A program made the position numbers and the translations under genes. From a virus, in IMG/VR virus record IMGVR_UViG_3300003409_000018, positions 7,749 to 33,593 of that record: a stretch of 25,845 nucleotides of DNA; one strand, written 5' to 3'. Of this stretch, positions 3,301-23,687 are shown piece by piece. Within the stretch, counting starts at the first letter, position 1; each line of letters begins with the position of its first letter. Below the pieces are notes generated by a model. The model searched no databases, was not told where the DNA came from, and saw only the letters and a list, made by a program, of their open reading frames with translations.

Positions 3301-3722
3301 CTTTGTGTGTCTAGCCAATACTGTCCGTCATCTGGATCAGCGCCTGGAACATCTGCTTGAGCAGTTAATTCATCTAGATCAATGTCTGCTCTTACAATGT
3401 ATGCTGAATTAGCAACACCTAAGAATGAATATGCCGCTTGTAAGCCGTATTCGTTTTGTTCGTCTGCGTGTCTTGGGCTACCTGAAATTGTTTGTTTGAA
3501 AACTGGTGTACCAAAAAAGTCAACTAGTTCTCGCTGACTTGAAACTCTGTATACTTTACCGACATTGGATGCTAGCGTACCTGCCGCGATCCCTGTGCCA
3601 GAAGCATTTGATTTGTCTTGCGCTGTCGCAACTACGATTAGCGGAGTAGTTCCTCCGTCTGCGGGAGTGTAAAAACTCTCGTCGCTTACCGTAATTTGAA
3701 CGCCTGGTGATTGTAGTGCCAT
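360..3722 (-). CDS. gp18: Contractile tail sheath protein gp18 (expanded, 1120 aa)
   Basis: This encodes the contractile sheath around the tail tube. The N-terminus (MALQSPGVQITVSDESFYTP) and the C-terminal third have the sheath pattern, including SYPWFAPAGVRRGG (about residues 930-945), DIKVNPLTFFNGVGLVNYG and a final stretch ending near LRLKNTGEIQG. T4 gp18 is 659 residues, so this version carries several hundred extra residues, mainly between about 120 and 750. The extra part holds at least four Trp-rich modules (near 130-152, 355-395, 595-625 and 660-700), with patterns such as DGQYWLDT and GDLWIDTSD. It also holds two related segments near 250-325 and 490-560 that start around FVINGTTVTL and VAVTFTAAGA. 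An AGGAG ribosome binding site lies about 8 bases before the ATG, and a late box is at 3759-3766. The family is clear; the role of the insertions is unknown. Confidence 0.93.
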   Translation of the reverse strand: MALQSPGVQITVSDESFYTPADGGTTPLIVVATAQDKSNASGTGIAAGTLASNVGKVYRVSSQRELVDFFGTPVFKQTISGSPRHADEQNEYGLQAAYSFLGVANSAYIVRADIDLDELTAQADVPGADPDDGQYWLDTQSTAWGIFEWDGNLATLDGQKFGNKVPLVINSTDTDKLSGSAPATGVGSVGSYAIVTVSDVVRAYYKGVDYTTAGNPVSWAEVGTKEWRKFWPVFTADRDGHSAQTGTTDFVINGTTVTLPAGSTVDDVVTIVNNLSIQGVKAAKVNNKFTLYITDTVDDALGDSTDSNVIEMVDGSASINTLFGTAGGVSAGNYYGPELFMGPHTAVPQWKATSQLPRPTGSVWVKTTEPNQGARWRVKAWDSASSSWVESLAPLYINPQTAIYNLDRTGGGKNIAKDSLFVQYNYTEDSGYDSTPQTSSFKIFTRKTTGATSVTSGIIDASSLSAGSYTINIRESVVGQAALDTAVAVTFTAAGAASDANTLATAINNAQFNHVEAEVVNGRIVISHTAGGDIRFEDTDSAMALIGFSAYDYSTGTGTTDLYAAPQGDTYDFIASNWLPLAGTTYGYVASADAPQNDPLDGQRWYSSLTDEVDIMVHNGTTWVGYLDSTSPYYSANLADQTDPAGPMVSPSRPITQSDGSPLKTGDLWIDTSDLENYPVIYKYNNDLSNTPIANRWILVDKTDDSSEDGVVFADARWGTDGTQEDAGTIADLLTKNYIDPDAPDPALYPRGILLFNTRRSGFNIKVYRENYVDTAADNARFNDESMANYATNKWVTDSGEAFGRKAQRQSVIEKLKATIATNQQIREDEVRQFNLIACPGYPEVTQNLVDLNTDRGTTAFVVADSPFRLPADTQSLVEWGQNQNGATDNGDDGLVTFDEYTGVFYPSGLTSDNTGNTIVVPSSHMMLKTIALSDQVSYPWFAPAGVRRGGITNATSVGYVDRATGDFQQVSLTDNQRDTLYDIKVNPLTFFNGVGLVNYGQRTRASGDSALDRINVARLVIYLRTQLNKLAKPFVFEPNDKITRDEIKQAVESLLLELTGLRALYDFAVVCDESNNTPARIDRNELYVDIAIEPVKSIEFIYIPLRLKNTGEIQGQASA

Positions 3723-3758: not shown

Positions 3759-3766
3759 TATTTATC
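3759..3766 (-). promoter_or_regulatory. T4-late-type promoter box for the sheath gene
   Basis: On the minus strand this reads GATAAATA. The predicted start near 3753 gives a 31-base leader that carries an AGGAG ribosome binding site in front of the sheath ATG at 3722. This matches the expected late expression of a major virion protein. Confidence 0.6.
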
Positions 3767-4669: not shown

Positions 4670-5305
4670 CTAAAAACTGTGCTTTGATTGCCCATGTCCT
4701 ACTGTTCCTTTGCTGAATAAATTAAAAGCAACACTATAACGATCAATGTTTGTCATATTAGGCGGAACTTCATGTTCTAAATGACTCGGAAACATTAATA
4801 AGTCTCCGTTTTTTGGTTGTATAGTATAACTTTCCATATTAAATTGATTGTGTTTATTAAGATCAACCATAGGTTTTACAGTATTATGGAATAGGTTAGT
4901 ATAAGAATAAGATTTATTAAAAATAATAGGAGGAGCACTAGGATCAATCTCTGGGTAATAAACTCCGCTAATCATAGCACACTCGTGACCATGATTGGCT
5001 ACCCAATCACCGGGTGATGTTTTATTCACCCAACTTGTTGTTATTTCTAGATCCGTGTTTACGGCTAACTCACTAACAAATTGTTGTACAGCCTTTTCAA
5101 TAGCATTACGCAAATTCTTCATTTGTGGCTTGTGTAACAAATACATTCCTTGTGAGTCTGCTGGTAGATCGTTATCTTTGTTATCTCGACCTACTTCTCC
5201 TACAGGAAAATCTAAATTTTTAAGCCATGCTAATGAAATAGGATCCATAGGACCTATATTGGTAACTGCGAGGGGTACTGAAAATAATGGAACTACTGTA
5301 AACAT
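4670..5305 (-). CDS. 2-oxoglutarate/Fe(II)-dependent oxygenase family protein (TIGR02466-like)
   Basis: This 211-residue protein resembles the putative 2OG-Fe(II) oxygenases common in marine phages. Visible family marks are an N-terminal VVPLFSVPLAVTNI strand, then NHGHECAMISGVYY (residues 104-117, candidate iron-ligand His at 105/107) and finally GDLLMFPSHLEHEVPPN with distal His178. Arg189 in DRYSVAFN probably binds 2-oxoglutarate. These enzymes hydroxylate or otherwise oxidise a substrate using O2 and 2-oxoglutarate; the substrate here is unknown. It lies 14 bases upstream of the kinase gene on the same strand. The N-terminal strand needs the ATG at 5305, which has no ribosome binding site. 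A consensus sigma70-type promoter ends seven bases upstream, so the message is predicted to be leaderless. Confidence 0.8.
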   Translation of the reverse strand: MFTVVPLFSVPLAVTNIGPMDPISLAWLKNLDFPVGEVGRDNKDNDLPADSQGMYLLHKPQMKNLRNAIEKAVQQFVSELAVNTDLEITTSWVNKTSPGDWVANHGHECAMISGVYYPEIDPSAPPIIFNKSYSYTNLFHNTVKPMVDLNKHNQFNMESYTIQPKNGDLLMFPSHLEHEVPPNMTNIDRYSVAFNLFSKGTVGHGQSKHSF

Positions 5306-5311
5306 ATTCTT

Positions 5312-5340
5312 ATTATATGTTCAACAGCACATAATGTCAA
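5312..5340 (-). promoter_or_regulatory. Consensus sigma70-type promoter for the oxygenase-kinase pair
   Basis: On the minus strand a perfect TTGACA (-35, 5340-5335) and a perfect TATAAT (-10, 5317-5312) are separated by exactly 17 bases. The -35 starts just after the stop of the upstream gene. With the usual spacing the start point is 5305, the A of the oxygenase ATG. The match to host consensus points to early expression by host RNA polymerase. Confidence 0.85.
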
Positions 5341-5819: not shown

Positions 5820-6584
5820 TTATCCTATTACAAGACTGTAACCGGTATTATTGCTTCCTGCTACTGATGTTGTTAACTCAATAGTTAACCTGTCAATGTC
5901 TGCTTGTGCTTCTGCTTTTAATGAAGCTCCGTTAAGAGCAGTACCGCCTTGTGGACCAGCAATACTGGCATACTTTTCACGGGCTTGTGCTAACATCATT
6001 TTACAATTAGCAAGTGTATAATCTTTAATCCATTGACCCGCATAAACATCTTTAATAATGCTTACATCAGGTCGTCTATTGTAAACATGTAATGCTACTT
6101 CTTCATTAGATCTAGGTCTTTGATGAATATATAATTTTTTAGTTTCAGGATGCCAACTGAATTGAATAAAACTACCAAACGTTTTACCAACTCGTTCTTG
6201 GTATCCAGCAAATAATTCATATGTTGCCAAGCCGCCCATATTAGTTGAGCTCAAAAGGTATGTATTTGTATATGCTAAATTGAATGGTTCAAACACTGTG
6301 CCGCCTGCGCCGCCGCCGGATCGTGATCCAATGCTCCTGCGCATTACTTCTCTCACCATTTGAATTTCATCTGGTAAAATATATTCGTTTTGATCTAGCT
6401 CTAACTTTAAAAAAGCAAAACTTTCTTCAACAGAGTTATCTGAACGTTGTCTAAATACACCCAACGCTCTTTCAAGAGCAGTTTCATAATGCTCTGGATC
6501 TAATTCAACATCAATCATTCCGTCACCTAGCATAGTGCGGCAATAATTGAATACTTTCTGTTTTTCTTGGTCTAATTGGCTCAT
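5820..6584 (-). CDS. gp13: Neck protein gp13
   Basis: This 254-residue protein matches the gp13 neck (head completion) protein of marine T4-like phages. Typical segments are an N-terminal helix followed by DVELDPEHYETALERALGVF, then YILPDEIQMVREVMRR, GGLATYELFAGYQERV, TKKLYIHQRPRSNEEV, QWIKDYTLANCKMMLAQARE and the C-terminal IAGPQGGTALNGASLK. Gp13 and gp14 close the portal after packaging and form the joining surface for the tail. A Gly-rich loop (RSGGGAGG, about 93-100) is an added flexible stretch. In T4 genes 13 and 14 lie in the same direction; here they are divergent. No ribosome binding site is visible, and the late box at 6590-6597 predicts a start on the ATG itself. Confidence 0.8.
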   Translation of the reverse strand: MSQLDQEKQKVFNYCRTMLGDGMIDVELDPEHYETALERALGVFRQRSDNSVEESFAFLKLELDQNEYILPDEIQMVREVMRRSIGSRSGGGAGGTVFEPFNLAYTNTYLLSSTNMGGLATYELFAGYQERVGKTFGSFIQFSWHPETKKLYIHQRPRSNEEVALHVYNRRPDVSIIKDVYAGQWIKDYTLANCKMMLAQAREKYASIAGPQGGTALNGASLKAEAQADIDRLTIELTTSVAGSNNTGYSLVIG

Positions 6585-6589
6585 GTAAG

Positions 6590-6597
6590 TATTTATC
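6590..6597 (-). promoter_or_regulatory. T4-late-type promoter box for gp13
   Basis: On the minus strand this reads GATAAATA. By the T4 rule (box at -13 to -6) the start point is 6584, exactly the A of the gp13 ATG, so the message would be leaderless. It forms a perfect 8-base inverted repeat with the gp14 box at 6604-6611, with six bases between. Confidence 0.65.
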
Positions 6598-6603
6598 TGT
6601 AGC

Positions 6604-6611
6604 GATAAATA
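6604..6611 (+). promoter_or_regulatory. T4-late-type promoter box for gp14
   Basis: On the plus strand this reads GATAAATA. The predicted start is 6617, the A of the second possible gp14 ATG (MPRLSLYR). It mirrors the gp13 box at 6590-6597, so one 22-base palindromic stretch seems to drive both neck genes in opposite directions. Confidence 0.65.
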
Positions 6612-6616
6612 TGTTT

Positions 6617-7933
6617 ATGCCAAGATTAAGTTTATATCGCCCAGAAAAGGGCAACGACTACAAATATATAGATCGAACAGCATGGGAAATGTTTCAAGTG
6701 GGCGGTACAGATGTACTAATTCACAAATACATAGGCCCAGGCGACCAAGCCAGTGGCGAATATAGTCCAACTGTTCCGAACTATGAAAGTAGCACATCGA
6801 GACCCGAAACACGTATTCAAGATATGCTGTTTTTAGAAAACAGAGATCGCAAATACGAACAAGATGTATATGTGTTAAGAGGCGTGTATAACATAAGCGA
6901 CATTGATTTTAATTTAAGTCAGTTTGGTTTGTTCTTACAAAACGATACGCTGTTTATTACATTTCATATCAACGACACAGTAGAAAAACTTGGCAGAAAG
7001 ATTATGGCAGGTGATGTAATTGAATTACCTCACTTGAAAGATGACTGGGCATTAAACGATTTAAGTTTTGCTTTAAAAAGATTCTATGTTATTGAAGAAG
7101 TAAATCGTGCCGCTGAAGGTTTTAGTGTCACTTGGTATCCTCATCTGTATAGAGCGAAGTGTACTCCGTTGGTAGATAGTCAAGAATTTAAACAAATTTT
7201 AGATAAAGTTGCTGACGATGAAAACTTTAGAGGCAATTGGAATGCTGAAGTAGAATATGCTATAGGTGATGTAGTTGAATTTGAAGGAGAAAAGTATACA
7301 GTACTTGCTCCAGTTCAAGGAATTGCTCCTCCTAACGCAACATATTACAAGTTTGCTGATAAGTTGCGTGATATTATGAGCACATTTGAAACAGAAATGC
7401 AGATTACAGAAGCAGTACAGGATCAAGCTGAAGCAGATGCTCCGAGAAGTGGATATGACACAACAGGGTATTACACCGTACCGATTGATCCGGAAACAGG
7501 CCATGTTAAATTAGTAACAGCAAGTAGCACAAGTCTCGGCGCAGGCCAAACTGGAAACACTGTAAGTGCTAGTACAGTAGAAGCAACGCCAGTTAAAGAT
7601 GGGTATCAAAACTATCATGAAGATGCCATTCCACCAAACGGTGCTCCATTTACTAGTGGTATTACATTCCCTGTAACGCCAGTAGAAGGACAGTTTTGTC
7701 TACGCACAGATTATCATCCTAAGAGACTGTTTAGATATGATGGGAAGCGTTGGGTGAAATACGAAGATAATGTAAGAATGACTATGAGTCAAAATGGTAC
7801 TGATACGCCTGATCCAAGATTAAATCAGAAGGGATCGTTTATCAACAACACAACAGTAAGTACAATTAATGGAAAACAAGTTGAAGAGAAAACGAGTTTG
7901 TCAAAGGCGCTAAAACCAAAGGCGGATAACTAA
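6617..7933 (+). CDS. gp14: Neck protein gp14
   Basis: The N-terminal half matches marine T4-like gp14: MPRLSLYRPEKGNDYKYID, then LFLENRDRKYEQDVYVLRG, FNLSQFGLFLQNDTLFITFH and LGRKIMAGDVIELPHLKDD. Gp14 works with gp13 to complete the head and join it to the tail. It is 438 residues from this start, against 256 in T4 gp14. The extra C-terminal half has a chitin-binding-like motif (WNAEVEYAIGDVVEFEGEKY, about residues 210-230). Further on is a Trp module (GQFCLRTDYHPKRLFRYDGK followed by RW) near 355-380. An in-frame ATG at 6611 would add two residues. I prefer 6617 because the late promoter predicts initiation there and the MPRLSLYRPEKGN start looks more natural. It begins the plus-strand island and couples to the next gene by TAATG. 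Confidence 0.82.
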   Translation: MPRLSLYRPEKGNDYKYIDRTAWEMFQVGGTDVLIHKYIGPGDQASGEYSPTVPNYESSTSRPETRIQDMLFLENRDRKYEQDVYVLRGVYNISDIDFNLSQFGLFLQNDTLFITFHINDTVEKLGRKIMAGDVIELPHLKDDWALNDLSFALKRFYVIEEVNRAAEGFSVTWYPHLYRAKCTPLVDSQEFKQILDKVADDENFRGNWNAEVEYAIGDVVEFEGEKYTVLAPVQGIAPPNATYYKFADKLRDIMSTFETEMQITEAVQDQAEADAPRSGYDTTGYYTVPIDPETGHVKLVTASSTSLGAGQTGNTVSASTVEATPVKDGYQNYHEDAIPPNGAPFTSGITFPVTPVEGQFCLRTDYHPKRLFRYDGKRWVKYEDNVRMTMSQNGTDTPDPRLNQKGSFINNTTVSTINGKQVEEKTSLSKALKPKADN

Positions 7934-9563: not shown

Positions 9564-9953
9564 ATGCAAAAACGAACAGGTATACTATTCATTTCAAAAT
9601 CTAGTGGTAGAATTTTTCTAACTTGGGACGGTAAGTGGACTGTTCCAACTTTCTTTAGACAATCTTCAGTAATCGAAGACTCTAAAGATTTAATAGAAAA
9701 ATACAAAATCGAAAATGCTAAATTTGTCCCAATTGAATTATATACCAGCAAAGATAACGGATTTGAGTACGGAACTTACATTGTATTAACAGACAATGAC
9801 TTTTCATCAGACGACGGAACCTATTGTTGGGCTTCTTTAACCAACCTTCCTAAAAATGTACACATAGGTTTAAAGAATACGTTGTCAAATAAAATTACTC
9901 AAGTTAAAATTGATACAGTACTAGCAACAGGAAAGAGTTATGATATCTATTAG
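9564..9953 (+). CDS. Nudix-like protein lacking the Nudix box (129 aa)
   Basis: The overall order of segments suggests a Nudix-type fold: an opening strand GILFISKSSGRIFLTWDG, a KWTVPTF motif where Nudix enzymes have W-x-x-P-G-G, a central strand set (GFEYGTYIVLTDND), then YCWASLTNLPKNVHIGLKN near the C-terminus. The latter resembles the usual late WxxLxxLPxxxH region. The defining catalytic box (GxxxxxExxxxxxxREUxEExGU) is absent, so catalysis of nucleotide-diphosphate hydrolysis is unlikely. It may be a binding protein or a decayed relative. It lies 11 bases after gp15 with no clear ribosome binding site and overlaps the next gene by 14 bases. The fold call is tentative. Confidence 0.5.
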   Translation: MQKRTGILFISKSSGRIFLTWDGKWTVPTFFRQSSVIEDSKDLIEKYKIENAKFVPIELYTSKDNGFEYGTYIVLTDNDFSSDDGTYCWASLTNLPKNVHIGLKNTLSNKITQVKIDTVLATGKSYDIY

Positions 9954-10230
9954 AAATAGCGCATCTTATAGAAGAGATTGTCAGATCTATGAAAAATATG
10001 CCAACTTTGCTGTTGGTGAAGATAGAGAAAAGTTTATCAGACTATATGAACAATTCAAGTCTATGGTTGAACAATTTGATAAACAGTCATTAGAGCTAGG
10101 TAGTACACGCATGGCGTACGATTATCATAAAGATCTAAAGGATCGATTAATTTCACACAAAGCAAAAATGGACGAAATGGTTAAGACTGCACGACATATT
10201 GTTCAACAGATAAAAAAGAAGAAAATGTAG
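9940..10230 (+). CDS. Helical, probably coiled-coil protein of unknown function (96 aa)
   Basis: The sequence is almost entirely charged and helical (for example REKFIRLYEQFKSMVEQFDK and KDLKDRLISHKAKMDEMVK) and ends in a Lys-rich tail, QQIKKKKM. An AGGAAAGAG ribosome binding site sits three bases before the ATG at 9940, within the end of the Nudix-like gene, which supports this start. It closes the plus-strand neck unit. Its last 50 bases overlap the 3' end of hldD on the other strand. A small terminase subunit (gp16) was considered because of the helical content, but nothing specific supports that. Confidence 0.62.
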   Translation: MISIRNSASYRRDCQIYEKYANFAVGEDREKFIRLYEQFKSMVEQFDKQSLELGSTRMAYDYHKDLKDRLISHKAKMDEMVKTARHIVQQIKKKKM

Positions 10231-11065
10231 TAACACTTTCAAGTTTTCTCATGTCTGCTTTTGTAAAAATTTGATATTGCCCTTCTAGTTTTTTAGGAAA
10301 CGCAATTTCTTCTATTTCAGCATTATATTTAAACGCAATAATTTCAGCAACTTCTTTAAAACTAATAGCAGTACCAGTACCTAAGTTGTAAATTCCATTA
10401 AACTTTTCTTTACTACTTTCTACAACAGTTCTAACTACATCACCTACCCATACAAAATCTCTTTTGTAATTTTCACTACCTTCGAATATATAAATTTTTC
10501 TCTTGTCAATAGCTTGTCGAGTAAATTTGTGTATAGGGCTTGCTTGATCGCCTTTAAATTGTTCGCCATCGCCGTATACATTAAAGTATCTCCAACCTTG
10601 TATCTTAGCATCGGGCTTGACTTTTAAAATTTCTTCTACTTTTTTATCTATAATAGATTTGCTTTCAGCATACAACGACTTAGGATTAAGTTCAGCATCC
10701 TCAGCAAAATATAAATCAGTACCGTACACGCCTGCTGAACTAGCATAGCTAAACATGATATCATGTTCTAAGCAATCGTGTAGTAATTTAATAGAAGGTT
10801 TGATATTATAACTGTCAATTCTTCCTTTATTAGTTTCGGTTGTACTACTAATAGCACCTTGATGAAATACACATTTTACTTTTTTCCAGTCTTTGAAATT
10901 ACTGTAAAAGTCTCTCATCTCCATTAACACTTTATATTCACAACCGATAATGTTGTGAGCAGGCTTCATTTCATCAACTAAAATGATATCTTTAATACCC
11001 TGCTTATTCAGTTCTTTTACAATGTTAGAACCGATAAATCCTAGTGCCCCTGTTACTATAATCAT
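10181..11065 (-). CDS. hldD: ADP-L-glycero-D-manno-heptose 6-epimerase (HldD-like)
   Basis: This 294-residue short-chain dehydrogenase/epimerase fits HldD, which inverts C6 of ADP-D-glycero-D-manno-heptose to give the ADP-L-heptose used for the LPS inner core. The NADP-binding loop is TGALGFIGSN (5-14). Catalytic candidates are Ser109/110 in YASSAGVYG and the Tyr132-x3-Lys136 pair (YAESKS). HldD-type segments include HQGAISSTTE, GWRYFNVYGDGE, FEGSENYKRDFVWVGDV, IYNLGTGTAISF and a closing PKKLEGQYQIFTKADM. E. coli HldD is 310 residues. The C-terminal end is a little short and overlaps the convergent 96-residue gene by 50 bases. It is last in a four-gene cassette in which stop and start codons overlap (ATGA). 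The specific sugar assignment rests on overall similarity to HldD and on HldE in the same cassette. Confidence 0.85.
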   Translation of the reverse strand: MIIVTGALGFIGSNIVKELNKQGIKDIILVDEMKPAHNIIGCEYKVLMEMRDFYSNFKDWKKVKCVFHQGAISSTTETNKGRIDSYNIKPSIKLLHDCLEHDIMFSYASSAGVYGTDLYFAEDAELNPKSLYAESKSIIDKKVEEILKVKPDAKIQGWRYFNVYGDGEQFKGDQASPIHKFTRQAIDKRKIYIFEGSENYKRDFVWVGDVVRTVVESSKEKFNGIYNLGTGTAISFKEVAEIIAFKYNAEIEEIAFPKKLEGQYQIFTKADMRKLESVTTFSSFLSVEQYVVQS

Positions 11066-11355
11066 TTAAAAAAAACTTCCGAATTAATTGCTTTGTCATC
11101 GATCCAAAAATCGTAGTGTGGCTTCCCTGCTTTACACGATGTGTATTTAACACCAATCTCTTCTAAAAACTTCTGAGTATATTCTTCCCAATTTATACCA
11201 GAAACAGCACCTCTAGCAGTGTAGTAGTGTATTTCGTGTCCTTGATCATACAAGGCATTCATCTTATCTATTCTTGTCTGAATAGGTTTACTATTTTCGT
11301 AGTCGCTATTTTTAGTATCTAGGATCGTTCCATCAATGTCAACTATATAGATCAT
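11062..11355 (-). CDS. Short HAD-family phosphatase (97 aa)
   Basis: A minimal HAD hydrolase without a cap domain. The nucleophile motif is IVDIDGTILDT (Asp6, acid/base Asp8). Motif II is the Thr46 of YYTARG, motif III is Lys78 or Lys75 in KAGKPH, and the metal-binding acids are Asp86-Asp87 in FWIDDKA. Very short HAD proteins of this kind occur in bacterial capsule and LPS loci. In the ADP-heptose pathway a phosphatase (GmhB) must remove the 7-phosphate between the two HldE steps. This protein sits between hldD and the cupin and could fill that job, although it is about half the length of GmhB and not obviously its relative. It overlaps both neighbours by four bases. Confidence 0.75.
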   Translation of the reverse strand: MIYIVDIDGTILDTKNSDYENSKPIQTRIDKMNALYDQGHEIHYYTARGAVSGINWEEYTQKFLEEIGVKYTSCKAGKPHYDFWIDDKAINSEVFFK

Positions 11356-11726
11356 TTGTTTACTTGCTCTTGGCTATCACCAGGCATAATTCTATAATTG
11401 TCCTCTACACTATCAGCAGTGCTTACTTCAGTGATTGAACTCATTGGAGCAAGAGCAACTAATTGATGAGGTTGTAAAGGAGGGTTATGCCATGTGTCGC
11501 CTTCATTTAATTCTTTTTCGTATAATGTCGCAGTTTTAGTATCTAACCAACGTACATTAAATTTGCCTGAATTTACAAACCAGGTTTCTTCTTTTTCTTT
11601 ATGGAAGTGCATACTAAATTTAGCACCTTGTTTTTCAAATACCATAATTTTACCACAGTACTTATCATTGGTGGCCCAAATTAATTCGTATCCCCAACCT
11701 TTATCTACTTTGCCTTCTAGTCTCAT
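11352..11726 (-). CDS. Single-domain cupin, mannose-6-phosphate isomerase type II-like
   Basis: A 124-residue cupin. The start GWGYELIWATNDKYCGKI matches the opening of the PMI-type cupins (the C-terminal domain of ManC proteins). Cupin motif 1 is His40-x-His42 with a Glu at 46/47 and Gly54 (HFHKEKEETWFVNSG). Motif 2 includes Gly76 (EGDTWH) and His87 in PPLQPHQLVAL, so the metal-binding residues are present. The substrate is not certain: sugar phosphate isomerisation or epimerisation, or a regulatory role, are the known options for this group. It is third from the end of the hld cassette with four-base overlaps to both neighbours, which ties it to activated-sugar synthesis. Confidence 0.75.
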   Translation of the reverse strand: MRLEGKVDKGWGYELIWATNDKYCGKIMVFEKQGAKFSMHFHKEKEETWFVNSGKFNVRWLDTKTATLYEKELNEGDTWHNPPLQPHQLVALAPMSSITEVSTADSVEDNYRIMPGDSQEQVNK

Positions 11727-12979
11727 AGTGTTCCTTCCAGTATTTTAGTAGTACTGTAATCTTTCACTCTTGGAAATATTACTACTTTTGCTAAATCGTG
11801 TCCTACAGTTGTCTCTACTGTGTAATCACCGCCTTTTACTATTATATCTGGTTTTACAGATTTAATCAAGTCGTAAGGCGTATCTTCGGAAAAAATAATT
11901 ACTTCGTCTACAATAGCAAGACTTTCAAGCATTGTTTTTCTATCTTCTTGATTAAATTTTGGACGATTCTCACCCTTTAATCTTTTGACACTTTCGTCAC
12001 TGTTGATAGCAACAATTAGTTTATCGCCTTGTTGTTTCGCAAATTTCAATAGTTTCAAATGTCCTAAATGTAATACATCAAAACACCCATTTGTAAAAAC
12101 AATTTTTTCTTTAATATCAGATTCTTTTACATTGTAAGTACCCGGGCGACTAACTGCTACTCCTGCTACTTTGGAAGCAATTTCTAATGATTCATCTAAG
12201 GTGTTTCCATTAGTAAGTCCATATACCAAACCTGCTAGTGTACTATCTCCGGCACCGGTAATATCAAATACTTCTGTTTCAAAACTAGATTGACGCTTGA
12301 TGTGTCCATTTTTACCTACTAATATCATTCCGTCTGGACCTAGTGTTACTAACATATATTCAAAATCATATTTTTTACATGCTAGTATTGCTTTGCGAAT
12401 TAAATCATCGTAGTCGTCAAAGTCATTTACTAATTCTTTAAATTCTTTTTTGTTTGGTTTAACTAACCAGGCATGTTTATAATTATAAAGATCCTGTTTA
12501 GGATCGACAATAACCTTAATGTTTTTATCTCTTAGAATTTTAAATTGGTCGGAACAATTACCAATAGTTCCTTTGTTGTAATCACTTACAACTAGATACT
12601 CTGTTCCTTCTGCGCAGTAATTGTTAATATTGATAGGATTACTAAATCTTTTTTCATTATCAATTCTTGCGATTTGTTGATTGTTACAAATTATTCTTTT
12701 CTTTGTAATAGTACACGATTCTATGTCTTTTAAGTAACTAACATAAAGTTCGCTAAGGTATTCTGACAATGTAAAAGATTCACTGTCATTTCCTACAATG
12801 CCAACAGCATTAACTGAACATCCTAATGAATGTAAATTTAACGCAACGTTACACGCACCTCCCGGAGCGTATTCTGTTTTGATTGGTTTAATAACTGGAA
12901 CTGGTGCTTCTGGAGAAATTCTATCCGAAACACCGTATTCAAAAATATCTAAAATAAAGTCGCCGATAACTGTAATCAT
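11723..12979 (-). CDS. hldE: Bifunctional heptose-7-phosphate kinase/heptose-1-phosphate adenylyltransferase (HldE-like)
   Basis: Both HldE domains are present in one 418-residue chain. The kinase domain (about 1-285, ribokinase/PfkB type) has VIGDFILDIFEYG, ISPEAPVPVIKP, GGACNVALNLHSLG, SDYNKGTIG, DPKQDLYNY and the catalytic FDITGAGDST (GAGD at 242-245). The adenylyltransferase domain (about 290-418) has TNGCFDVLHLGHLK with the HxGH signature at 304-307, VAINSDESVKRLKGENRP, KGGDY and a late STTKI. The enzyme phosphorylates D-glycero-D-manno-heptose 7-phosphate at C1, and later joins AMP to heptose 1-phosphate to give ADP-heptose. E. coli HldE is 477 residues; the difference lies in kinase loops. 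It heads the cassette, 37 bases downstream of the giant structural gene, with no clear ribosome binding site or promoter. The cassette looks more AT-rich than its surroundings. Confidence 0.9.
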   Translation of the reverse strand: MITVIGDFILDIFEYGVSDRISPEAPVPVIKPIKTEYAPGGACNVALNLHSLGCSVNAVGIVGNDSESFTLSEYLSELYVSYLKDIESCTITKKRIICNNQQIARIDNEKRFSNPININNYCAEGTEYLVVSDYNKGTIGNCSDQFKILRDKNIKVIVDPKQDLYNYKHAWLVKPNKKEFKELVNDFDDYDDLIRKAILACKKYDFEYMLVTLGPDGMILVGKNGHIKRQSSFETEVFDITGAGDSTLAGLVYGLTNGNTLDESLEIASKVAGVAVSRPGTYNVKESDIKEKIVFTNGCFDVLHLGHLKLLKFAKQQGDKLIVAINSDESVKRLKGENRPKFNQEDRKTMLESLAIVDEVIIFSEDTPYDLIKSVKPDIIVKGGDYTVETTVGHDLAKVVIFPRVKDYSTTKILEGTL

Positions 12980-19593: not shown

Positions 19594-20193
19594 TTATGCT
19601 CCGAATACTACTGCGTATGCGATAGAGTTATTATCGACGTAATCTTTTCTTGCTACCTGATTGCCCTGTGTAGGCGATTCACCAATTACTGGGTTTTCAG
19701 TAAATGATATTGAGCCTGCTATAACACTAGCGTTAAAGTTGATATTTGCTCTAGAAGCAGTTAAACTTCCCGGTGAGCCTTGATCGTTTTCAACTGTAAC
19801 ACTTGTAGCTCTCAGTGTTCCTGGATTACTTGTACCAATATTTACGTTATCAATAGAGCCCCTCTGGGCACTTGTGATTTCAACTGTTCCAGCGATAACA
19901 CTAATTCGATTAGTTCCATTAGATCTTAATCGAGCATCACCATCTACTATTAAATCTGAAAGAGTTCCTAATGTTTGTAAAGAAGAACCAGTCACTGTCG
20001 GCGATAAAACTGTACCGCCTGATGTAAACAACGGATTGTTATTAATGTTGATAGAGTTTGTATTAACTTGTGGGGCCGAGATGCTGTTCGTTAATGTGAG
20101 AGACGAGCCAGCAATGTTGCCGTTGCTATCAACAACAAAATTTGGGCTTTCAAACCCTGTTTTACTTTTAAATCTTTGAAATCCGACTGCCAT
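19594..20193 (-). CDS. Fibre-like virion protein (199 aa)
   Basis: The N-terminus MAVGFQRFKSKTGFESPNF followed by VVDSNGNIAGSSLTL is a pattern I associate with small structural proteins of marine T4-like phages. The middle is made of short beta repeats rich in Ser, Thr and Asn (INNNPLFTSGGTVLSPTVTG, ATSVTVENDQGSPGSLTASR). The end GNQVARKDYVDNNSIAYAVV resembles the KxYVD motif found near the C-terminus of many tail-fibre proteins. The precise role is unknown, but fibre or collar is likely. It has its own late box (20213-20220) and AGGAT ribosome binding site, and the giant structural gene follows three bases after its stop, so the two are probably co-expressed. Confidence 0.7.
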   Translation of the reverse strand: MAVGFQRFKSKTGFESPNFVVDSNGNIAGSSLTLTNSISAPQVNTNSININNNPLFTSGGTVLSPTVTGSSLQTLGTLSDLIVDGDARLRSNGTNRISVIAGTVEITSAQRGSIDNVNIGTSNPGTLRATSVTVENDQGSPGSLTASRANINFNASVIAGSISFTENPVIGESPTQGNQVARKDYVDNNSIAYAVVFGA

Positions 20194-20212: not shown

Positions 20213-20220
20213 TATTTATG
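20213..20220 (-). promoter_or_regulatory. T4-late-type promoter box for the 199-residue fibre-like gene
   Basis: On the minus strand this reads CATAAATA. A start near 20207 gives a 14-base leader holding the AGGAT ribosome binding site for the ATG at 20193. It likely also drives the giant structural gene and possibly the hld cassette beyond, since no terminator is seen between them. Confidence 0.6.
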
Positions 20221-21881: not shown

Positions 21882-23687
21882 CTAGTTCTTAACACTGATT
21901 AATTTACCGTACTCGGGCAAATACAAGTATTCAATCTCGCTTCGAACTAATGTTTCAACAGCATCATCTAGTGTTTCAACTAGTGGATCACCACCTAAGT
22001 TAAAACTAGTGTTGAAAATAATTGGAATGCCTGTAGCATCATTGAAAGCCTTGATCAGATCATAATAGTGTGGGTTCTGATCGCGTTTGACTGTCTGAAT
22101 TCTACAGGTTCCATCTACGTGAATAATTGAAGGAATCTTTTCCTCAATTCCGGGCTGACAATTGACAGCGTACATCATATGAGGAGTTTCATCCATACCG
22201 CGTAGATCAAACCATTCGTGGACATATTCATGTAGAATAGATCCAGCAAATGGACGGAAGTATTCTCTATGCTTGACCTTGTTGACATGATCTTTGCCAT
22301 CAGGATCAGTTGGATCATAAAGAATACTTCTATTACCAAGGGCTCGTGGACCATTCTCGGAGCGTCCTTGGAAAATCGTTACAATATTTCTATCTTTTAG
22401 TAATGCCACTACATCTTCATTTGTAGCGTCTTTAACTTCAGCGTTATATTTTTCAACAACAGTATTAATATCACTATCACTGTAATCATATTTAGGACCT
22501 AAATATAACGTATCGAGTTTTTGAATTTCAGTGCTAGCATCCTGGGCATGCCAAAACATCAGTGCCGCGCCCATTGCTGTTCCAGCATCGTTAGAAACTG
22601 GTTCGACGTAAATTTCAATGCCTTCGTCTTTTAGTGCTTCAAGATAATGATAGTTAGCAACACAGTTAAGACCATAGCCGCCACTGATAACAACCTTTTT
22701 CTTCCCGCTCATTTTAACTGCTTTGCGAATTAATTCTACTACTTGGTCTTGTGTTTGTGTTTGAACAGCATACGCTAAGTCTCTACGACTCTGTAATAGT
22801 GTTACGTCCGAAGTAGGATCTTCTGGCCACTCATCTAATGCGTCATATAATCCATGATTAACACGACTGCTCGCCGGATACATAGGTATGATTACATTTC
22901 TATCACAGAATGATTGCTTACCATTTTTTGTAAACAACGACGGAATTTGATCATTAGGTTTACCGTATGGAAATAGTCCCATTGTTTTGCCAGCTTCGAT
23001 TGAACTCCAACCGCAATACTCAGTAACGCCTTCATATGTTTTAACAATACCTGCTCTATCTGTAATCCACGCTTCGTGCGTTTCGCCAGTTTCTCCAAAT
23101 TGATCACTTGAAAAGTCCGGAACATATTGAGCATTAATTGGTTCTTTAGTTCCGTAATGCTTATACAACGTTTTAAACTCTGACGGATAACCGCAATCAA
23201 CAATAGATTCAACTTCCCAAACCCAAATAGGGCTCCGGTCATATGACATTTGAATGAAAGTTCCTGCTCCATCAACAATAAGACTTACAGCATCGTCAAA
23301 CCCAGAACGATAAAAAGCACAAGCAGAATGTAACTTATGATGCATATAACTCAAATCAACTACTTGAGGATGATTATGAAGATCAACACCTTTGTTTTCG
23401 ATTAGTCCTAGTTTACGTGCCAGTCCAGTATACACATCATCGCCTGTATAATCAACTCGGCCTGCAGTATCGCTAAGTGATTGTGTATGTGCTACAATAA
23501 GATAATCAATTTTATCTGTGTACTCTAAAATTTTAACCATCGAAGCATAAGGGCCACCGTCGTATTTTTGTCTTGTTAATCGTTCTTCCTCAATAGAAAA
23601 TACAATTTCTCCATCTTTTAACAGACATACTCCACTGTTGTGTCCCCTAGCAATAGCGGCTATCCAGCCTGTTTTTTTATTACTCAT
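21882..23687 (-). CDS. O-carbamoyltransferase of the NodU/CmcH/TobZ family
   Basis: This full-length, 601-residue enzyme transfers a carbamoyl group from carbamoyl phosphate, through carbamoyl-adenylate, to a sugar hydroxyl. The N-terminal Kae1-like domain starts GWIAAIARGHNSGVCLLKDG with FSIEEERLTRQK. The metal-binding His are at 116, 117 and 120 (YMHHKLHSACAFYRSGFDDA). Nucleotide-binding Gly-rich segments are VDGAG and ISGGYGLNCVANY. The C-terminal domain has QGRSENGPRALGNRSILYDP (GPRALG at 446-451, the carbamoyl-phosphate site), REYFRPFAGSIL and FNTSFNLGGDPLVETLDDAV. Known relatives include WapO, which carbamoylates heptose in the P. aeruginosa LPS core, and NodU, which acts on Nod factors. 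The ATG overlaps the GT9 stop as ATGA, and a terminator follows. The acceptor is inferred to be a heptose because of the hld genes and the GT9 partner. Carbamoyltransferases are known from some marine T4-like phages, without an assigned role. Confidence 0.92.
   Translation of the reverse strand: MSNKKTGWIAAIARGHNSGVCLLKDGEIVFSIEEERLTRQKYDGGPYASMVKILEYTDKIDYLIVAHTQSLSDTAGRVDYTGDDVYTGLARKLGLIENKGVDLHNHPQVVDLSYMHHKLHSACAFYRSGFDDAVSLIVDGAGTFIQMSYDRSPIWVWEVESIVDCGYPSEFKTLYKHYGTKEPINAQYVPDFSSDQFGETGETHEAWITDRAGIVKTYEGVTEYCGWSSIEAGKTMGLFPYGKPNDQIPSLFTKNGKQSFCDRNVIIPMYPASSRVNHGLYDALDEWPEDPTSDVTLLQSRRDLAYAVQTQTQDQVVELIRKAVKMSGKKKVVISGGYGLNCVANYHYLEALKDEGIEIYVEPVSNDAGTAMGAALMFWHAQDASTEIQKLDTLYLGPKYDYSDSDINTVVEKYNAEVKDATNEDVVALLKDRNIVTIFQGRSENGPRALGNRSILYDPTDPDGKDHVNKVKHREYFRPFAGSILHEYVHEWFDLRGMDETPHMMYAVNCQPGIEEKIPSIIHVDGTCRIQTVKRDQNPHYYDLIKAFNDATGIPIIFNTSFNLGGDPLVETLDDAVETLVRSEIEYLYLPEYGKLISVKN

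Follow-up and report, generated by a model that had tools for sequence, protein, structure and literature searches.

The DNA analysed here (hereafter the window) is a stretch of 25,845 nucleotides, positions 7,749 to 33,593 of the IMG/VR record IMGVR_UViG_3300003409_000018, which is a 33.6-kb virus fragment. We have examined the short gap between two divergent genes. On the minus strand (5820..6584) is found a gene of 254 codons coding for a gp13-like neck protein (head-tail adaptor Ad2; PHROG 211, E 2.4e-34), whose ATG occupies 6584-6582 and whose start, MSQLDQ, is backed by relatives. On the plus strand (6617..7933) lies a gene for a neck or virion structural protein (PHROG 11591, E 4e-85). 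The label gp14 comes from the initial annotation; the PHROG match is to a virion structural protein and the gene is located at the expected site of the neck partner of gp13. Its ORF has two in-frame ATGs, at 6611 and 6617, and the former was rejected as the start because it overlaps the promoter box described below and is not conserved, the relatives keeping the start MPRLSL at 6617. The gap itself contains TATTTATC (6590-6597), CTGTAG (6598-6603) and GATAAATA (6604-6611), i.e., a perfect inverted repeat, as the initial annotation had described. Read in the direction of the gene that it precedes, each arm is the box GATAAATA: one on the minus strand (6590..6597), separated by CTTAC from the ATG of gp13, and the other on the plus strand (6604..6611), separated by TGTTT from the ATG of gp14 at 6617.

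These upstream boxes fit the T4-type late box pattern NATAAATA. The late box of T4 occupies -13 to -6 (PMC2988020), and therefore a spacer of 5 nt would place the transcription start on the A of each ATG, at 6584 on the minus strand and at 6617 on the plus strand. The same start sites had been derived before by this rule, and the arithmetic is borne out, both boxes ending 5 nt before the ATGs. The pairing energies with the Shine-Dalgarno (SD) region were +0.4 and +0.2 kcal/mol for gp13 and gp14, compared with about -4 to -7 for most genes of the window; therefore neither gene has a ribosome-binding site in the window, and the initial annotation was also right on this point.

The bare inverted repeat is unremarkable. 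Perfect 8-bp inverted repeats with a gap of at most 10 nt appear 12 times in the window, within the range expected by chance (simulated mean 6.9, maximum 19). Unlike the repeat, the boxes do exceed chance. The heptamer ATAAATA is depleted in the window (4 copies observed vs. 11.8 expected) and all four copies are located directly upstream of a gene and in its reading direction: the sheath gene, gp13, gp14 and the ORF 19594-20193. The first and the last belong to a class with leaders. The box of the sheath gene (GATAAATA, 3759..3766, minus strand) is 36 nt from the ATG at 3722 and is followed by the SD AGGAGA, and that of the ORF 19594-20193 (CATAAATA, 20213..20220, minus strand) lies 19 nt from the ATG with an SD-like AGGA. 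Besides, the degenerate boxes GATACATA and GATAACTA are found exactly 5 nt before the ATGs of SD-less ORFs of the window at 9564 (+) and 12979 (-). They are possible weak leaderless late promoters, a suggestive pair too small for significance.

Comparison of the gap across relatives separates what is kept from what drifts. The spacer of gp13 was 5 nt long in 61 of 61 distinct upstream sequences, with 22 different letter strings that all end in a pyrimidine. For gp14 the distance was 5 nt in nine distinct sequences (the subclade of the window plus lineages L126, L132 and L157), 7–8 nt in 26, and at least 18 nt, with an SD, in six. By layout, gp13 would thus be leaderless in the 80 relatives nearest to it; gp14 would be either leaderless or preceded by a leader of 2–3 nt. 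Since the spacing of gp14 is 7–8 nt in most relatives, its strict leaderlessness is not conserved, and the predicted start falls exactly on the ATG only in some lineages. The initial proposal of two leaderless neck genes stands then in part: both boxes are suitably placed and the gp13 spacer is invariant, the exact fit of gp14 being restricted to those lineages. As to the gap as a unit, the divergent boxes are kept in close relatives, contrary to the loss that would have told against the initial proposal, and the length between them is not, the box-to-box distance going from -2 (overlapping) to 28 nt.

This drift bears on whether the repeat could serve as a palindromic operator or as a terminator. 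In favour of such a role, it is perfect over 8 bp and the folding of its RNA hairpin gives z -2.2. However, relatives keep the distance from box to ATG when the gap changes, the arms become unequal (GGTAAATA vs. GATAAATA), and a hairpin between divergent start codons has nothing to terminate. We have discarded this reading, which we regard as extremely improbable, on account of the drifting gap length and of how common such repeats are by chance.

The leader type of the two genes also changes independently. A leadered gp13 was found in L113, L126, L132 and L157, each with a GGAG-type SD, and a leadered gp14, again with an SD, in the group of L122, L138 and L143. Thus L122 combines a leadered gp14 with a gp13 that is leaderless by layout, L113, L126 and L132 show the reverse, and some lineages do not have the divergent pair. 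On the gp14 tree, the state of gp14 changes three times (two of them forced by well-supported branches) and that of gp13 once, elsewhere; these events are too few for a significant pairwise test and enough to reject a conserved fixed-ratio device, so that the earlier suggestion that neck partners are made in fixed ratio is not sustained. In L122 and L138, the start of the gp14-like gene, near position 6001 of each locus, appears to be ATT (ATTCCAAGG / ATTCCACGG) instead of the usual ATGCC, with GGAG as a strong SD ahead of it, and a non-AUG start of gp14 is possible in these two leadered lineages.

We have searched for the same pattern in whole genomes. Closer relatives of the window are abundant in IMG/VR, and five of them, of 270–364 kb, were examined complete. 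The distance (d) was measured from each ATAAATA outside coding cores to the first ATG that opens an ORF of 60 codons or more. The distribution was bimodal: 57 of the 227 sites were at 4–6 nt (15 at d = 4, 36 at d = 5 and 6 at d = 6), only one was at 9–12 nt, and a broad mode of longer distances, mostly accompanied by an SD, followed. The excess of the short class was significant in each of the five genomes taken singly (Fisher p from 2e-5 to 2e-10), and 7-mers of the same composition other than ATAAATA gave no peak near the ATG in these relatives. Sites with d = 4–6 were absent among the 41 of T4, and from Atu_ph07 and the cyanophages S-PM2 and Syn9, and PA5oct had two, which was not significant. 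The pelagiphage HTVC008M, on the other hand, has 8 of its 26 late boxes at exactly 5 nt from an ATG. All five large relatives code for a gp55-type sigma (the copy of G001 hits PHROG 12791, the late-transcription sigma factor, at E 2e-78), a finding made in the relatives, the record of the window itself being a 33.6-kb fragment. For gp45 no match was obtained by BLAST or with PF02916, an uninformative result, as PF02916 also misses HTVC008M. The position of the two boxes, their depletion in coding DNA and the late sigma of the relatives support the initial identification of both as T4-type late promoters.

The short class has features of its own. Its median SD energy (d = 4–8) was +0.6 kcal/mol, with no gene at -4 or below, vs. 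a median of -5.25 for the long class, a contrast that is partly forced because the box occupies the position of the SD. Other properties are not built into the definition of the class. The start codon was ATG in 58 cases and GTG, TTG or CTG in none; the base at -1 was a pyrimidine in 52 of 57 short-class sites vs. 61 of 104 leadered ones; and the leader class is inherited gene by gene. Most orthologue groups are constant, either with d = 4–6 in all genomes or with leaders whose length drifts, and a few switch. We considered a phage S21 ribosomal protein as the cause and rejected it. Of the phages with the class, G001, G002, G004 and HTVC008M encode this protein and G003 and G005 do not; it is present, moreover, in Atu_ph07 and PA5oct, that do not have the class.

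When checking variant boxes we found, unexpectedly, that TATAAT likewise peaks just before the ATG. A set of sigma70 promoters was assembled from the same genomes, requiring TATAAT together with a hexamer that agrees with TTGACA in five or all six bases (n = 160). Thirty of them were at d = 5–7 (21 at exactly 6), two at 9–13, and 83 at 14–40 with strong SDs. For a sigma70 promoter, d = 6 places the transcription start on the A of the ATG. The window contains one such case, a perfect TTGACA-N17-TATAAT (5312..5340, minus strand). A spacer of 6 nt separates it from the ATG at 5305, where a 2OG-Fe(II) oxygenase gene begins (4670..5305, minus strand; PHROG 81; SD energy -0.4), and this gene is predicted to be leaderless, as the sigma70 counterpart of the late cases. 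Two start-site rules of different geometry would then both put the start on the A of the ATG. This predicted leaderlessness, genome-wide and present also at sigma70 promoters, had been missed by the initial annotation.

The convergence of late and sigma70 promoters on the same base argues for leaderless mRNAs and against another role of the AT-rich octamer. Such a role could be that of a translation enhancer or of an unstructured landing site for ribosomes, and AT-rich stretches before start codons can aid SD-less translation. It is very unlikely that the octamer acts in this way instead of as a promoter: it is also found 13–45 nt upstream of SD-led genes, it is depleted in coding DNA, 7-mers of equal composition have no peak, and full TTGACA-N17-TATAAT promoters share the placement. 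It could also be that the boxes are promoters, but that transcription starts elsewhere than the T4 rule predicts, or that most of the gp13 and gp14 mRNA reads in from promoters upstream, giving both genes real leaders. The gp14 relatives with spacings of 7–8 nt indicate that the exact distance can vary, and the position of the start at gp13 and gp14 is predicted from promoter geometry. Still, we hold this to be unlikely, given that promoters of unlike geometry peak where the start would be the A, that the gp13 spacer is invariant over the 61 sequences, and that two divergent genes cannot be read through one from the other.

The genes that are leaderless by layout in G001 or its orthologues include gp13, two virion proteins (PHROG 14802 and 13484), a CHASE2-cyclase and a nucleotidyltransferase, together with a glycosyltransferase, a hydroxylase-like protein, a desaturase and genes of unknown function. 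Leadered genes are those of the tail tube, the sheath, very large fibre-like proteins, the baseplate hub and ribonucleotide reductase. There is a qualitative trend for leaderless genes to be low-copy or enzymatic vs. leadered genes coding for abundant products. The CHASE2-cyclase (L177:17561-19606, minus strand, with orthologues in G002 and G004) is a predicted leaderless late gene for a membrane protein with a CHASE2 and an adenylate/guanylate cyclase domain, unusual for a phage.

Parts of this picture are known from other systems. The late promoters of T4 use the gp55 sigma and a TATAAATA box spanning -13 to -6. This is the same box, coding DNA is depleted of it there too, and the relatives of the window encode a late sigma homologue. 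In T4, however, every late box with a nearby gene is at least 12 nt from the ATG and there is no short class. T4 also has two late boxes that overlap and diverge (TATTTATAAATA, 116441-116450) and that, going by the coordinates and the T4 gene table, lie between genes 26 and 51. They likewise face outwards between divergent virion genes, but the gene starts are about 20 nt away (T4 gene table) and both transcripts are leadered. With this pair in T4, and a gap that drifts from overlap to 28 nt, the mirror-image arrangement cannot be considered the special unit that had been proposed. In Atu_ph07 and Phosso, too, the gp13/gp14-like genes are adjacent and divergent, and the gap between them contains box-like sites. 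There the distances from box to ATG are longer (27–28 nt with SDs in Phosso; 37 nt for gp14 of Atu_ph07, a phage without the genome-wide short class), so that the divergent layout may predate leaderlessness. The leaderless mRNA of the lambda cI type likewise starts at the AUG, has no SD and strongly prefers AUG (PMC9031893), but cI is a single regulatory gene, and here many genes, early and late, of a T4-related lytic phage are predicted to be leaderless. The cultured pelagiphage HTVC008M (NC_020484), a smaller T4-related phage, shares the late-box peak at exactly 5 nt; a published search for late promoters in pelagimyophages failed (PMC7029224). The transcripts of AR9 have leaders of 26–491 nt.

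The gp14-like protein has 31–42% identity to those of distant jumbo phages, namely Atu_ph07 (Agrobacterium), Phosso (Sinorhizobium) and the PA5oct group. Three related contigs, with the same short gp13 spacing, come from MAGs that carry the label Pelagibacter or Rickettsiales; the presence of a phage contig in a MAG bin is weak evidence of host. The window also carries (10181-12979 and 21882-23687) sugar-nucleotide and heptose enzymes (epimerase, phosphoheptose isomerase, heptose kinase/adenylyltransferase) and a Nol-like carbamoyltransferase, a cluster that suggests modification of surface sugars by the phage.

The reading that we favour, to which we give a probability of about 0.85, is that the gap holds two independent outward-facing T4-type late promoters producing leaderless gp13 and gp14 mRNAs, as one case of a clade-wide habit. 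RNA polymerase with the gp55 sigma would start one helical turn below each box, and the mRNAs of gp13 and gp14 would begin at the AUG with no leader (or, in the case of gp14, no more than about 3 nt from it in many of the relatives). The ribosome would then bind the 5'-terminal AUG by the leaderless route, and leaderless translation prefers AUG (PMC9031893). The late polymerase would occupy one box or the other; complexes at this spacing would overlap, and therefore initiation at the two boxes is probably mutually exclusive. Throughout this clade of jumbo phages one set of genes would be leaderless, from late or sigma70 promoters, and SD leaders would be kept by the genes of abundant structural proteins, sheath and tail tube for example. 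More speculatively, and with rather low confidence, the clade and perhaps some pelagiphages could have a two-track translation, with a fixed leaderless set vs. an SD-led set under early and late promoters, and phage or host could shift between tracks through the state of ribosomes or initiation factors.

T4-type late promoters, divergent late pairs (T4 116441) and leaderless mRNAs are each already known singly. In the open-access papers searched we found no report of late transcripts without a leader, either for T4-like or for jumbo phages. To our knowledge, most of the leaderless mRNAs described in phages are isolated examples, lambda cI among them. In this widespread clade of jumbo phages dozens of genes, neck genes included, appear to be leaderless through precise placement of the promoter, and this class, inherited gene by gene, sits beside a leadered class with SDs. 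There are practical consequences: start calling based on the SD may place starts wrongly, gp14 of the window is set at 6611 by the longest-ORF rule, and searches for late promoters that require a normal leader would miss those of the short class. As one and the same orthologue would have a leader in some phages and none in others, the clade may serve as a natural experiment on the use of leaderless translation.
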